64,000 bases of DNA. Origin: Sneathiella glossodoripedis JCM 23214 (GTDB lineage Bacteria; Pseudomonadota; Alphaproteobacteria; Sneathiellales; Sneathiellaceae). This document shows positions 32,992 to 38,785 of the stretch, piece after piece. The stretch lies in NCBI RefSeq assembly GCF_000616095.1, contig NZ_BAMS01000001.1:868001-932000 (forward strand), given 5' to 3'. A program made the translations under genes and the position numbers. Position 1 is the stretch's first letter, and each line of letters starts with the position of its first letter. The notes beneath the pieces are model-generated. The model was not told where the DNA came from and ran no database searches. It worked only from the letters and a program-made list of their open reading frames with translations.

Positions 32992-33753
32992 ATGTCAGAA
33001 GGGTACACCCCCTTGATTGTGATCCCTGCACGAATGGCGTCAAGCCGTCTTCCAGGCAAGCCGTTGGCCGATATAGATGGCAAGCCGATGATTGTTCAGG
33101 TGATGAACCGTGCGTTGGAAGCGGATCTCGGCCCTGTTGTTATTGCCTGCGCTGAGGTGGAGATTGCGAATGTGGTTAATGACGCTGGCGGAACAGCCAT
33201 TTTGACCGATGCGTCGCATCCGTCCGGGTCGGACAGGGTTTTTGAAGCGGTAGAGACTTTCGACCCTGAACAGAAATTTCAGTCAATTATTAATTTGCAA
33301 GGTGACTTGCCGGGTCTGGATCCGGTTGCCATTTTGGCAGCCAATGAAGCACTGCAAAAAAATAACGCTGACATTGCGACACTCGTTGCTGAAATTACGG
33401 ATCAGGCGGAGTTGAATGATGAAAATGCAGTAAAGGCTGTTGTCAGTATGCGCGCGGGTGAAAAATTTGGCAGAGCCTTATGGTTCAGTCGACTGAAAAC
33501 CCCTTGGGGGGAAGGGGCATATTTTCATCATATCGGCATCTATGCCTATAAAAGGGCATCTTTAAAGAAATTTATTTCACTTGACCCTTCACCGCTTGAA
33601 CTTCGCGAAAAGCTTGAGCAGCTTAGGGCCTTGGAGGCGGGAATGAGAATAGATGCAGCTTGCGTTGACACGGTGCCGTTAGGTGTTGATACTCCGCAGG
33701 ATTTGGAACGCATGCGCCAGTATTTCGTGTCGCGATCTGAGAGCCCAGAATAA
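32992..33753 (+). CDS. kdsB: 3-deoxy-manno-octulosonate cytidylyltransferase (CMP-Kdo synthetase)
   Basis: 253 residues. The nucleotide-binding start PARMASSRLPGKPL, the HPSGSDRV and NLQGDLP motifs and the closing VDTVPLGVDTPQDLERMR are all typical of KdsB. It activates Kdo for lipopolysaccharide inner-core synthesis, which places the organism among Gram-negatives with Kdo-containing LPS. An AGGAG ribosome site precedes the ATG. pheA follows on the same strand after about 35 bases. Confidence 0.95.
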   Translation: MSEGYTPLIVIPARMASSRLPGKPLADIDGKPMIVQVMNRALEADLGPVVIACAEVEIANVVNDAGGTAILTDASHPSGSDRVFEAVETFDPEQKFQSIINLQGDLPGLDPVAILAANEALQKNNADIATLVAEITDQAELNDENAVKAVVSMRAGEKFGRALWFSRLKTPWGEGAYFHHIGIYAYKRASLKKFISLDPSPLELREKLEQLRALEAGMRIDAACVDTVPLGVDTPQDLERMRQYFVSRSESPE

Positions 33754-33788
33754 ATCCAGTTAGATTAAACAACAGGTTGGTTGATAAC

Positions 33789-34649
33789 ATGTCCAATGCA
33801 GAACCAGAAAATTCAATAGCTTTCCAAGGTGTCCCAGGGGCATATGGGCATTTATCCTGCAAAAGCGTATTTCCTGAAATGGAAGCAATAGCCTGTGAGA
33901 CTTTTCTTGACGCAATCAATATGGTGCGTGATGAAAAGGCAAAATATGCGATGATCCCAATAGAGAATTCTTTGGGTGGACGTGTTGCGGACATTCATCA
34001 CCTCTTGCCTGAAAGTGGACTCTTTACTATTGGTGAGCATTTTCAATCTGTTCAGCATCAATTATTGGCTGTTCCGGGCGCTACGCTTTCAGATATCAAA
34101 GCTGTTCACAGCCACGAGCAAGCATTGTCTCAGTGCCGCAATTTTACTAGAGAGCTTGGCATAGAGCCGGTCATACATGCTGACACTGCGGGTTCTGCGA
34201 AAATGATCGCCGAATTGGGAGATAAATCTCAGGCATCCATTGCTTCCAGTTTGGCAGGTGAAATATACGGCCTTGAAGTTTTGCGAGATCGTGTTGAGGA
34301 TCGATTGGGTAACACGACACGGTTTTTGATTCTGTCGCGGGAACGGCGGGATCCTGGAGTTAAAGGCGGGCCATGTATGACCAGCTTTGTTTTTCAGGTC
34401 CGTAGTCAGCCTGCTGCACTTTACAAAGCTTTGGGTGGCTTTGCGACGAACGGAATCAATGTGACGAAGCTTGAAAGCTATATAACCGATGAAAGCTTTG
34501 AGGCAGCGCAGTTCTATATTGATGTTGAAGGCCACCCTGAGGAGGCAAATCTGTCGAGAGCAATAGAGGAATTGCAGTTTTTTTCGGCCAAGCTCAAAAT
34601 ATTGGGTGTATACCCACAGCACGCCTATCGCAGGGAATATAGCTCTTAA
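33789..34649 (+). CDS. pheA: Prephenate dehydratase
   Basis: About 286 residues from the ATG at 33789 (an in-frame TTG lies at 33777). The dehydratase domain begins IAFQGVPGAYGH and contains the catalytic-region motif GNTTRFLIL; the C-terminal 80 residues are an ACT domain (SQPAALYKALGGFATNGINVTKLES) that senses phenylalanine for feedback control. It converts prephenate to phenylpyruvate. No chorismate mutase domain is fused. The kdsB-pheA pairing is common in alphaproteobacteria. Confidence 0.93.
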   Translation: MSNAEPENSIAFQGVPGAYGHLSCKSVFPEMEAIACETFLDAINMVRDEKAKYAMIPIENSLGGRVADIHHLLPESGLFTIGEHFQSVQHQLLAVPGATLSDIKAVHSHEQALSQCRNFTRELGIEPVIHADTAGSAKMIAELGDKSQASIASSLAGEIYGLEVLRDRVEDRLGNTTRFLILSRERRDPGVKGGPCMTSFVFQVRSQPAALYKALGGFATNGINVTKLESYITDESFEAAQFYIDVEGHPEEANLSRAIEELQFFSAKLKILGVYPQHAYRREYSS

Positions 34650-34745
34650 AGCTTGATTGATAGTTGATTTGAGCATATAAGCGCCTTCAAATTTAAGCTG
34701 AGGGCGTATTGCTCTCCTGCGTTTGATTACAGATTAGGAAGTATA

Positions 34746-35309
34746 ATGTTTAACCTCGCGCAAACAAATTCAACGCAACGCGGATATTTGCTGGCCGGTG
34801 TTCTGGCGATGGCTGTTGTTGTGACCGCGTCAAATATTCTAGTGGAAATGCCTATTAATGATTGGCTCACTTGGGGTGCGCTTAGCTATCCTTTTGCGTT
34901 TCTTGTGACGGATTTGACCAATCGCGCATTGGGTGCGTCCATGGCGCGGATAGTTGTCTGTGTGGGGTTCTTGGCGGCTGTCATCATGTCCCTGGTTTTG
35001 GCAGACCCCAGAATCGCCCTAGCATCCGGGTCCGCTTTTTTAACCGCCCACCTGTTGGATATTTTGTTGTTTGATAAGTTGCGCAAGGCCAGTTGGTGGA
35101 AAGCGCCGCTGGTTTCATCAATCATTGCGTCATTTTTAGATACGCTAATTTTCTTTACGTTGGCATTTGCAGGAACGGGACTTCCTTGGACTACATGGGC
35201 ACTGGGAGACTATGGAATCAAAATTGTCATGGTGATTGTTCTGTTGCTGCCTTTCCGTGGGTTGCTGAAATATACAGATCCATTGACATTGGCGAGCACT
35301 GCTAGATAA
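34746..35309 (+). CDS. Queuosine precursor transporter (VUT/YhhQ family)
   Basis: 187 residues with about six membrane segments. Family landmarks are FLVTDLTNRALG, SGSAFLTAHLLDILLFDKLRK and the C-terminal YGIKIVMVIVLLLPFRG. YhhQ-type proteins import 7-cyano-7-deazaguanine or related precursors for tRNA queuosine. The upstream leader of about 95 bases shows no preQ1 riboswitch that I can recognise. The last 27 bases of the gene contain a near-consensus promoter that appears to serve the RNA region downstream. Confidence 0.85.
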   Translation: MFNLAQTNSTQRGYLLAGVLAMAVVVTASNILVEMPINDWLTWGALSYPFAFLVTDLTNRALGASMARIVVCVGFLAAVIMSLVLADPRIALASGSAFLTAHLLDILLFDKLRKASWWKAPLVSSIIASFLDTLIFFTLAFAGTGLPWTTWALGDYGIKIVMVIVLLLPFRGLLKYTDPLTLASTAR

Positions 35310-35310
35310 T
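35283..35310 (+). promoter_or_regulatory. Near-consensus sigma70 promoter inside the end of the transporter gene
   Basis: A perfect TTGACA (35283-35288), a 16-base spacer and GATAAT (35305-35310, five of six) point downstream. The predicted start is around 35316-35318, just past the stop codon. Confidence 0.65.
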
Positions 35311-35312
35311 AT

Positions 35313-35346
35313 CAAAAAAAAGGGCCAAGCGGTGAAGCTCGGCCCT
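35313..35346 (-). terminator. Possible minus-strand terminator for nudC
   Basis: Read on the minus strand, the stem AGGGCC(g)AGC...GCT(t)GGCCCT is followed by U8 (A-run at 35313-35320 on the plus strand), a good intrinsic terminator for leftward transcription from nudC. Confidence 0.5.
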
Positions 35347-35447
35347 AAGTAAGGGAGGAAACGCTCTCTTGCGAGAGCAGTCAGTGTGTGTGTGCTGACA
35401 AGGGATATATTGCACTTGCGAAAAGAATTCGCAAGTGCATTTTTTTT
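35316..35447 (+). ncRNA. Candidate small RNA of about 130 nt
   Basis: The region follows a near-consensus promoter, contains no ORF and shows four successive hairpins: AGGGCC(a)AGC/GCT(c)GGCCCT (35321-35346), GCTCTC/GAGAGC (35363-35378), GTCAG/CTGAC around an alternating TG loop (35380-35399) and a strong intrinsic terminator (35411-35447). A single-stranded purine stretch GGGAGGAAAC (35354-35363) lies between the first two hairpins and resembles a Shine-Dalgarno sequence, so it could pair with pyrimidine-rich targets or the anti-SD. I recognise no known RNA family. The first hairpin, preceded by A8, also looks like a minus-strand terminator, an alternative reading of that part. Confidence 0.5.
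35411..35447 (+). terminator. Strong intrinsic terminator
   Basis: TGCACTTGCGAA and TTCGCAAGTGCA form a perfect 12-bp stem around a 5-base loop and are followed by eight T (35440-35447). Confidence 0.92.
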
Positions 35448-35717
35448 GATTTTTGATAAAAATCGAAAAAAAATGAAACTATGATGAAACAGTGGGCAGA
35501 TTGGTTAAAATCTATGCGGTGATTGATTGAAAATTCACCTGATTAAGGTTTTTCGACGATTGCAAATAGTTTTGCATCAATCAAAACAAGTTAAGATGAT
35601 GCCTCGATTCACTGAGAGATTTTCTAAAACGAAAGTATTTCATCACTGGAAACAACCATATGAATTTGTGCATTGCAGCAAAATATCCGACCTGATTGTT
35701 ATCTGCTTCTGTCACAT
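35448..35717. other. AT-rich spacer, nothing recognised
   Basis: About 270 bases between the terminator and the end of nudC, rich in A and T. One short open frame (35527-35721) has no ribosome site and overlaps the nudC end, so I do not call it. Confidence 0.4.
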
Positions 35718-36637
35718 TTAGTCCTCAACCCATGACTTTGCCAATTGGTGGGCGATGGCCATTGGCGGTGACATACGGGGTGTTTCACTGGTGCCCGACC
35801 TTGCCAGCATTTTGCGAACTTCCGCTTTGCTGAACCAGCGGGCATCTGCAAGCTCTGCTTCTTCGAGAGTAATTTCTTCGCTCAAAGCTTCCGCAAAACA
35901 ACCGATCATTAACGAGGAGGGATAGGGCCACGGCTGTGAAGAATGATAGGTTACCTCACCTGTGCGCACGCCGGTTTCCTCGAAAACTTCACGCCTCACA
36001 CCCTGTTCTATTGTTTCGCCTGGCTCAATAAAGCCGGCCAGTGCGGAGTATTGCTGTTTGGGAAAGTGATGACCAGTACCCAAAAGACAGTTATCTCCCT
36101 TGACCACCATCATTATCACAACAGGGTCCGTTCTGGGGAAGTGGGTCGCATTACACTGGTCATTACAGCATTTTCGCGAGTACCCAAGCTCAGCAGATTC
36201 GGTTTTTGATCCACATTTTGCACAAAATTGATGAGTTTCGTGCCACGCAAGCAAAGATCGCGCCTGTGCCAGAGCACCTGCTTCTCCTGGGCGTAATTGT
36301 GATGAAATATTGCGAACATCAATAAATTTTCCCCAGTCGGAATTGGGGAGTTTTTTGGGTTTTCAATTGTGGAAACGTCGATCGCGAAATGAGCGGCAAA
36401 GTCGGCTAGGCCAAGAAAAACCAGTGTCGCTCCCGCTTCCAGAAACGACTTGATGTCACTGGCGCCTCTCCAGTCAATGCAAGGATCCCCCGCCAGTTCA
36501 ATGAGCGCTTTCAGATTGTGCATTGGCAGGAAACGGCTGGATGGGTCTTCAAGTTTTTGTTTAAACCAGTCTACGTCATTACGCAGATGAGAGGCCCGGT
36601 CAAAGCGGTTGCCGGTAAATACGAGAGGCTTTGTCAT
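35718..36637 (-). CDS. nudC: NAD+ diphosphatase NudC, Nudix family (frame interrupted near 36296)
   Basis: Two frames join into one NudC. The N-terminal part (from 36637) runs to IFHHN; the rest resumes RPGEAGALAQARSLLAW in another frame and has the zinc ribbon (FCAKCG...KCCNDQC), the Nudix box GFIEPGETIEQGVRREVFEE and the NudC hallmark SQPWPYPSS. Lengthening TT to TTT on the coding strand near 36296 gives 306 residues, the normal size. The enzyme hydrolyses NADH/NAD+ and can remove NAD caps from RNA. It is divergent from the SRP RNA gene. Confidence 0.87.
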
Positions 36638-36761
36638 TTGGATTCGTTTCTTGGACTCAAATTGATTTTACGGTTCAGTTTTTTTCACAGACTATCGTCA
36701 AATTGGGAGCTGTTGCAAATTTTTCCCAAAAAAGGGTTGCATCTCAGGTCAAGCTGACTGA

Positions 36762-36767
36762 TATAAG
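36762..36767 (+). promoter_or_regulatory. Extended -10 promoter of the SRP RNA
   Basis: TGATATAAG contains the extended -10 TG and TATAAG (36762-36767). The expected start about seven bases later coincides with the first base of the SRP RNA helix. Confidence 0.5.
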
Positions 36768-36771
36768 CGGT

Positions 36772-36866
36772 GGAAGGCTGGCGTGGGCGTGCCCCTCGCG
36801 AACCCGGTCAGGTCCGGAAGGAAGCAGCCGTAACGAGTTTCGGTGCGGGTCATTGCCAGTCTTCTT
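36772..36866 (+). ncRNA. ffs: Signal recognition particle RNA, small (4.5S) type
   Basis: The universally conserved SRP core is visible: GGTCAGGTCCGGAAGGAAGC with the GGAA tetraloop and the asymmetric internal loop AGCAGCC. The terminal helix closes with GAAGGCTGGC (36773-36782) pairing GCCAGTCTTC (36855-36864). The length of about 95 nt fits the Gram-negative form. It scaffolds Ffh for co-translational targeting to the membrane. Its position just upstream of dnaX is the usual alphaproteobacterial arrangement. Confidence 0.95.
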
Positions 36867-36956
36867 ATATTTCCCACTTATTCTGAACAGATATTTCCGA
36901 TCTCTTGTGACGATTAGGCTTTGATTGCTCTTAAAACTATCTGGTAAGCTGGGCAC

Positions 36957-38785
36957 ATGTCAGAAGAAACTCAAAAATCAGCTTACCGCGTCCTTGCCAG
37001 AAAGTACCGCCCATCCAATTTTGACGATCTGATTGGTCATGAGGCGATGGTTCGAACTTTATCCAATGCACTGGATTCCGGACGTCTTGCTCATGCGTTC
37101 GTCTTAACAGGCACCAGAGGGATCGGCAAAACTACAACAGCACGCATAATAGCGAGAGGGCTGAATTGCATTGGTGAGGATGGAAATGGTGGCCCCACTG
37201 TTCATCCGTGCGGTGTTTGCGACAATTGTAAAGCCATCGCAGAGGATCGTCATCAGGATGTCCTAGAAATGGATGCGGCCAGCCGCACCGGTGTTGATGA
37301 TATCAGAGAACTGATTGATGGCGTTCGATATCTTCCGATCAATGCTCGATACAAGATTTATATAATCGACGAAGTGCATATGCTGTCGAAAAATGCCTTC
37401 AATGCTTTACTAAAGACGCTTGAGGAGCCGCCGGAGCATGTGAAATTTATTTTTGCGACAACAGAAATTCGAAAAATACCAATTACGGTTCTGTCGCGGT
37501 GTCAGCGGTTCGATTTAAAACGCGTCGATGCAGATACATTAAAAGATTATTTCTCTAAAATAGCGGAAAAAGAAAACGCGTCGGTAGATGAAGATGCTCT
37601 TGCGCTTATTGCGCGGGCTGCAGAAGGGTCTGTGCGTGATGGATTGTCTTTGCTGGATCAGGCAATTGCGCACGGTGACGGGACTGTAACCGCAGAGCAA
37701 GCCCGGGATATGTTGGGTTTGGCTGACCGAACCAGAATGCTTGATTTGCTGGAATTTATTTTTGCAGGGAATGTCGCAGAGGCACTTGGTATTTTACGAA
37801 ATCAATACGATCGCGGTGCCGATCCTGTTGTGATTATTCAGGATTTGCTGGAGCTTACTCACTGGTTGACCACAATAAAGGTGACGCCAGATTCGGCAAG
37901 TACGGCTGCTTTGGGAAGCTCTGATATTGAACGTGCAGGTGCTATGGCGGGCAAGCTAAACATGCCAGTGTTGGCGCGTGCCTGGCAAATGTTACTAAAG
38001 GGGCTTGAAGAGGTAAGGCAAGCGCCGATGGCAATTGCTGCTGCTGAAATGGTGCTGATTCGTCTGGCATTTGCCAGCGATCTACCGAGCCCCGAAGATT
38101 TGGCAAAAAAAATTGAATCCTCAAATTCATCTGAGCACTCGATTTCAGGAGGTACAATTTCAACGCCAAGCGGAGGAACGTCAGCTCGTGCAGGGACAAA
38201 TGGCGTATCGGCAGCATTAGCTGTCTCAAATCCGACCCCCCATCAGAAGGCTGAAGCGAACAATGCTCCAAGGCGCATCTGTCAGTCGTATCTGATAGCG
38301 CGGTTGAAAATATCGCAGCCGAACAACCAGATATCGCTCTAAACCCTTCACCTGTGAGTGAAACTGAACAGCTAACTTCGGTCGAGCAGATGATTGAGCT
38401 GCTGCAAGATCGTAGTGATGTGATGCTTAAGGGGCAGGTTATTAATTTTGTCAGGCCGATCAAATTTACTGATGGTGAGCTATTGTTCAGCCCAGCTCCC
38501 GGCACGCCTGCTGATTTGGGGGCAAAACTTGGCCGGCGTCTTCGTGAAATTACCGGAAAGCCTTGGCAGGTCTCAATGAGTTCGGATGTCGAGGGTGGGC
38601 CCACGATTGCGGAAATGCGTATGAGCCGCAAAGCAGCGATGATTGCTGCTGCTGAAAATCATCCGGTTGTTCAGAAAATTAAAGAAGTTTTCGCAGGCGC
38701 GTCTGTACGCGAAGTCCGTGACCTGTCGCCAGATATTGAAAATATGATTCCTGAGGATATATCCGAAGGTGATGACATTGAGTAG
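36957..38785 (+). CDS. dnaX: DNA polymerase III subunits gamma and tau (frame interrupted near 38272)
   Basis: Clamp-loader ATPase: Walker A TGTRGIGKTTTARI, a zinc site with Cys pairs (LNCIG..., PCGVCDNC), Walker B YIIDEVHML and the sensor region TTEIRKIPITVLSRCQRF. The current frame stops at 38342, but from about 38272 another frame continues AHLSVVSDSAVENIAA and then the conserved tau C-terminal domain (VEQMIELLQDR to LSPDIENMIPEDI), stopping at 38785. GG to GGG restores 609 residues. Tau holds the replisome together; the gene is essential, so a true null is implausible. It starts the dnaX-ybaB-recR operon. See the separate slip-site entry. Confidence 0.92.
38105..38116 (+). other. Possible -1 slippage site in dnaX (A8 followed by a -1 frame stop)
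   Basis: Eight A (38105-38112) read as GCA AAA AAA ATT in the dnaX frame. A slip to -1 on A AAA AAA would read AAT then TGA (38114-38116), ending the protein at about 386 residues, just after the clamp-loader collar. An imperfect stem (TCCT...AGGA, AAAT...ATTT, 38118-38150) follows. Confidence 0.4.

Follow-up and report, generated by a model that had tools for sequence, protein, structure and literature searches.

An MmgR-family sRNA gene between vut and nudC in Sneathiella glossodoripedis, probably rewired from PhaR to another regulator

The region behind the vut gene (PF02592, Vut_1; 34746–35309, plus strand) of Sneathiella glossodoripedis JCM 23214 raises the question of whether an sRNA is encoded here and, if so, on which strand, of which family and under what control. 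All coordinates refer to the window, i.e. the whole 64 000 nt stretch of DNA analysed. A sequence-only reading had proposed a new plus-strand sRNA of approximately 130 nt, extending from a TTGACA/GATAAT promoter to a dyad acting as its terminator, and several of its observations stand. The hexamers TTGACA-16-GATAAT are located at 35283–35310 and match 11 of 12 consensus positions, the segment from the vut stop (35309) to position 35527 contains no plus-strand ORF of at least 40 aa, and the hairpins within 35316–35447 are present, with a fold z-score of −6.14 and none of 200 shuffles folding as well.

Comparison of the locus with the whole of Rfam returns a single family at gathering score, RF00519 (suhB, described as MmgR; αr8 family), which lies on the minus strand at 35385–35307, whilst no family reaches this level on the plus strand. 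The match spans the full 77-position model at 47.4 bits, a margin of 6.4 bits above the gathering cut-off of 41, and is the only copy above cut-off found in this genome. A real sRNA gene is thereby predicted at this locus, but on the opposite strand to that first read and within a family that is already known, such that the claim of novelty falls. The predicted transcript of approximately 86 nt, with an inferred start, occupies 35314–35399 on the evidence of RF00519, a genus-level model and an eight-genome alignment. It does lie inside the 35283–35447 interval proposed for a regulatory RNA, albeit reversed in orientation and shorter than the anticipated 130 nt; the start placed at 35316 is in fact the 3′ end of the sRNA, and the end placed at 35447 is beyond its promoter.

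With regard to structure, the minus-strand RNA is predicted to form three stems, and RNAalifold returns the same three from the eight-sequence alignment. The 5′ stem (GUCA...UGAC; 35380–35399) encloses a CA-repeat loop and, because its 4 pairs never vary across the eight genomes, provides no evidence of covariation. The second stem–loop (35363–35378) comprises 6 pairs, 2 of which are changed on both sides, with 48 of 48 cells paired. The third is the intrinsic terminator detected by a terminator scan (35314–35346), in which a stem at 35346–35321 is followed by a U run and 3 of 9 pairs are changed on both sides; the Rho-independent terminator looked for in RF00519 members is thus found here, and it is this element that appears as the first hairpin of the plus strand. 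Taken over the eight sequences, 146 of 147 stem cells are paired and 5 pairs carry changes on both sides. The covariation score of 0.265 is reached by none of 500 shuffles, with slid versions attaining at most 0.117, whilst the count of doubly changed pairs is less striking, being equalled by 22 of 500 shuffles; in both cases the shuffles ignore the kinship of the eight sequences. The two variable stems also pair slightly better as minus RNA (114 of 115 cells) than as plus RNA (111 of 115).

In the minus-strand fold, GUUUCCUCCCUUACUU is unpaired between two stems, the second of which is followed by U8. It is in this single-stranded region that the anti-Shine–Dalgarno core GUUUCCUCCC (35353–35362) resides, unpaired in the fold and invariant in all eight aligned genomes. 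The sequence-only reading had highlighted GGGAGGAAAC as an exposed stretch, and this sequence is indeed at 35353–35362 of the plus strand as the complement of the core; it is not exposed there, however, with GGGAG paired and GAAAC in a loop, whereas the minus strand leaves it unpaired. The family 10-mer, given as UUUCCUCCCU in the excerpts of PMC12559287, is present in this genome, and is single-stranded downstream of a hairpin. Across the eight genomes UUUCCUCCC is invariant, whilst the tenth core base is U in five (G000, G018, G015, G003 and G005), A in G009 and G in G002 and G010.

These features ally the transcript with S. meliloti MmgR, with which it shares a sequence and structure family, an unpaired CU-rich core and a Rho-independent terminator, although the predicted length is approximately 86 nt rather than 77 nt. 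SisA–D of Caulobacter crescentus (αr8) belong to the same family with the same core (PMC12559287, in excerpt), but are present there as four copies, as opposed to the one copy above cut-off here, and have the sponge RNA CrfA as a feature of that system. Similarity extends to AbcR (αr15), which carries CU-rich anti-Shine–Dalgarno motifs and is partly homologous to the suhB model according to excerpts of PMC7143759; S. meliloti AbcR RNAs are, by the same source, 114–120 nt, tandem and equipped with two such motifs, unlike the single locus above the RF00519 cut-off described here. Elsewhere in this genome, contig C9 (L003, L004 and L005) harbours three weak RF00519 matches of 31.0, 25.6 and 24.8 bits. 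Two of these are in tandem and recall AbcR pairs, with no Rfam gathering score for the RF00519-like pair, and the third overlaps a BjrC1505 sRNA (RF02356, 64.9 bits against a cut-off of 50).

Amongst 25 genomes of the family, RF00519 exceeds its cut-off in nine, of which 8 belong to the 24 congeners, amongst them this genome, and one is the single sister-genus genome, whilst some match at an E-value of 0.001, mostly weaker, is found in 23 of 25. A covariance model built from the eight genomes scores those eight at 82.9–106.6 bits, which is by construction, as is the match at 35399–35315 in the window, which contributed a row to the model; the sister genus scores 37.5 bits and the remainder at most 33.8. 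Ten of the congeners lacking the sRNA are at least 90 % complete (G004, G006, G007, G008, G011, G012, G019, G020, G022 and G024).

The genomic position is constant amongst the eight carrier congeners. The vut gene is found in 19 of 25 family genomes, in every one of which (19 of 19) nudC follows in convergent orientation, and the sRNA lies between the two in 8 of 8 carrier congeners. Where the sRNA is present (eight genomes), vut and nudC are 412–516 bases apart, as compared with 16–23 in nine others, with two further genomes, G007 and G011, showing about 1085–1089 bases to the first matched piece. From these distances, the sRNA and its control region are read as an extra piece within a tight vut–nudC pair, gained here or lost in the other lineage. 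Amongst 22 named loci encoding a vut relative, core and dyad (see below) both follow vut in three, from Sneathiella chinensis, a Sneathiella metagenome bin and 'Alphaproteobacteria bacterium 46_93_T64'; 18 have neither, and the remaining one, in Sneathiella sp. IN21, has a bare GGGAGGAAAC. The usual, although not obligatory, site of the family is beside a formylglutamate amidohydrolase gene, as set out in excerpts of PMC12559287; here that neighbour is not found and vut and nudC take its place, whilst in the sister genus the sRNA is near such a gene (PF05013), with an acetyltransferase in between.

A number of other observations concern this interval and its surroundings. In Sneathiella sp. 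IN21, a congener without the sRNA, a bare GGGAGGAAAC occurs 19 bases behind the vut match (L042, ~3570), which is either a relic or chance. The vut–nudC gap of G007 contains a sub-threshold match to the Guanidine-I riboswitch (L159, 2104–2201; 32.3 bits against 63, E-value 0.00044), with similar text in L156 of G011 and no match at gathering score; the gap seems to accept different inserts. In this assembly nudC (35718–36637, minus strand) is divided between two frames, whilst three relatives have one ORF of 306–307 aa, meaning that the split either is genuine or stems from a fault in the assembly. Further along, bacterial small signal recognition particle RNA (RF00169, 56.5 bits against 40) is located at 36775–36865 on the plus strand, and dnaX is split into 36957–38342 and 38354–38785 (plus strand), with the gamma/tau C-terminal domain (PF12362) as a separate ORF in another frame.

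Upstream of the sRNA, a minus-strand promoter, CTTGCG-N17-CAATAT, is predicted at 35407–35435; its hexamers are invariant in all eight genomes and resemble the alphaproteobacterial consensus CTTGAC-N17-CTATAT. The promoter is covered by a 29 bp dyad, TGCACTTGCGA-N7-TCGCAAGTGCA (35411–35439), with the sRNA start inferred at GTCAGC, and in 8 of 8 genomes the upstream region reads TGCACTTGCGA-N7-TCGCARGTGCA followed by ATAT. Of 11 arm pairs only 1 varies, on one side only, with the other 10 constant and none doubly changed. Each of the eight sRNA genomes has the dyad once, always at the sRNA, and the remaining 17 of 25 lack it. Allowing two mismatches, it is found in 4 of 385 genomes of the class, all of them sRNA-bearing congeners (the draw contained five congeners); allowing up to three within the 25 family genomes adds four single places (G001, G005, G006 and G019), and with only these extras a dyad regulon was rejected. 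Half sites are no more frequent in the window than chance would give (5, with 8.23 expected), and none of the 15 larger window ORFs scanned (of 67) is a regulator gene by Pfam name, one being without a family. The dyad is probably an operator, at which a repressor distinct from canonical PhaR would bind. As the NtrC consensus is TGCAC-N7-GTGCA, which by eye does not fit the 19 nt spacing, an NtrC site was rejected.

The foremost alternative is that the dyad is nothing more than the vut mRNA's intrinsic terminator, overlapping the sRNA promoter by chance in a compact layout. In this genome the sequence-only reading was correct to see a plus-strand hairpin followed by T8 at 35411–35447, similarly T-rich sequence follows in G018, G015 and G010, and no other T-tailed plus-strand terminator was found between vut and the dyad. 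The number of T residues amongst the next eight plus-strand bases is, however, 8, 6, 6, 2, 4, 3, 5 and 4 in the eight genomes, with few in G003 and G002 (2 of 8 and 3 of 8). Since T8 in this genome gives way to fewer T elsewhere, a plus-strand terminator role for the dyad is possible but not constant. Absence of covariation, one of the outcomes by which the sequence-only reading would be refuted, is seen in its supposed terminator stem, positioned over the predicted −35/−10 of the minus strand, the arm sequence itself being invariant, whereas the stems of the sRNA covary. Moreover, congeners without the sRNA possess vut, yet have no dyad. As the stem does not covary and is followed by 5 or more T in only half of the genomes (4 of 8), a pure terminator was rejected, and the explanation as a whole is considered unlikely.

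A second alternative is that the dyad constitutes a non-canonical PhaR site, and that control of the sRNA is unchanged. In S. meliloti, PhaR binds the palindrome YGCRNYGCR in the mmgR promoter (PMC12542648, in excerpt), a dyad within the −35/−10 region mediates mmgR control according to the excerpted review (PMC8401924), and MmgR ties carbon storage to nitrogen status, with PhaR repressing both it and the phasins (excerpts of PMC8401924 and PMC12542648). The placement of the dyad here within −35/−10 is akin to that described for S. meliloti; its sequence is another, and no PhaR palindrome is present. The regulator itself is retained: phaR is found in 23 of the 25 family genomes. A phasin is found in all 25, and in 8 of 8 sRNA genomes YGCRNYGCR-type sites lie ahead of phaR as well as of the phasin gene with the highest score. 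A matrix built from 44 phasin-promoter sites, for which the lowest true-site score is 18.2, identifies no PhaR site in any of the eight genomes when applied to the 130 bases that precede the mmgR core; the best scores are −12.4 to −5.7, and between 33 and 147 of 300 shuffles do as well. The same region in the sister genus scores 10.7.

For a broader view, 30 class-wide loci were considered, these being the best-scoring amongst 118 RF00519-positive of 289 genomes rather than a random draw. In 25 of the 30, the matrix gives at least 5 upstream of the sRNA, a cut chosen after the scores were known, and most score below the true-site minimum of 18.2; the controls reach this cut in 11 of 1500 shuffles and in 5 of 180 stretches taken from elsewhere in these loci. 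The PhaR pattern alone matches 26 of 30, one at the edge (−119). As four class-wide loci are below zero (L179, L183, L186 and L195) and one is just under the cut (L187, 4.9), absence of the PhaR site is not unique to this lineage. In favour of a non-canonical site, each dyad arm contains TTGC-type half sites, and in 6 of the 8 upstream regions it is the right arm that yields the best matrix match. Set against this, the scores are far beneath the true-site minimum, the GC-to-GC spacing is 4 instead of 3, and the same genomes keep normal PhaR sites, in promoters that show no dyad arm. A canonical PhaR site was rejected on the matrix, and a non-canonical one appears still less probable than the terminator explanation.

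There remains the plus-strand sRNA as first proposed. Promoter-like sites are somewhat numerous around the locus (10 within 33500–37500, against 5.8 with an sd of 2.4 in shuffles), and the hexamers in question lie within the 3′ end of vut. The −35 TTGACA falls in codons for the C-terminal peptide DPLTLASTAR, which 6 of 8 genomes share without change and the other two with one residue altered, whilst the −10 includes the vut stop codon. TTGACA is exact in 7 of 8 genomes and GATAAT is kept in only 1 of 8, with the best plus-strand pairs in the eight matching 11, 10, 10, 10, 11, 10, 9 and 8 of 12 positions. Coding constraint together with an A/T-rich stop region can explain this pattern; a promoter there is nonetheless possible. 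Thus, for all its near-consensus hexamers (with at least 10 of 12 matches in 6 of 8 relatives), T-tailed hairpin and strong fold, the new plus-strand sRNA is rejected as highly improbable, given that its −35 is coding sequence, RF00519 is on the minus strand with no family at gathering score on the plus strand, at least 5 of 8 T residues follow the dyad in only 4 of 8 genomes, the dyad pairs less fully as plus RNA (84 of 88 cells) than as minus RNA (88 of 88), and the core is partly paired on the plus strand. A plus-strand transcript such as the tail of the vut mRNA is possible and would be antisense to MmgR, and a second sRNA role on this strand could exist.

The preferred reading, to which we assign a probability of roughly 0.85, is of a minus-strand MmgR gene with a promoter at about 35435–35407, its own terminator at 35346–35314, and a dyad at which a repressor, putatively not canonical PhaR, would act. 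To this reading the present analysis contributes placement in the family on both sequence and structure, stems that covary, the invariant unpaired GUUUCCUCCC and linkage in all eight carriers amongst the 25 family genomes. Given the vut–nudC site, the dyad and the absence of a PhaR site (0 of 8), this is a known sRNA in a new place that has probably been rewired from PhaR to another regulator. The sRNA itself is ordinary, and the change of place and control region modestly interesting. Amongst the papers searched, none joins Sneathiella with small RNA, and the MmgR paper in Mol Phylogenet Evol (2016) may already describe the vut–nudC locus.

In terms of mechanism, the minus-strand promoter would transcribe MmgR as far as its terminator, and the RNA, together with Hfq, would pair its core to G/A-rich ribosome-binding sites, lowering translation and so tuning carbon storage. 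These latter steps are inferred from the family, for which the excerpts of PMC7143759 and PMC8401924 give Hfq binding and an effect on carbon storage as known for S. meliloti MmgR only. Ribosome-binding sites of the phasin genes here are, by eye, of GAAAGG type and a poor match to the core (the phasin start in G005 is probably wrong), so direct phasin targeting was rejected; the S. meliloti phenotype may thus not carry over, and targets may differ. The anatomy of the promoter suggests that the dyad over −35/−10 would act in repression, and read-through from vut may exert an antisense effect. A more elaborate and decidedly tentative version holds that MmgR at vut–nudC is free of PhaR control and has a private operator (found nowhere else amongst the 385 class genomes searched), that the dyad also ends the vut mRNA, and that the antisense vut tail and another regulator jointly set the MmgR level.

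On the preferred reading, this lineage would have retained the RNA whilst exchanging the signal that feeds into it. A lineage that maintains PhaR and its phasin sites, but has another invariant switch at the sRNA, amounts to an experiment of nature on what in the loop matters, and a dyad with a single target could serve to fish out the regulator.
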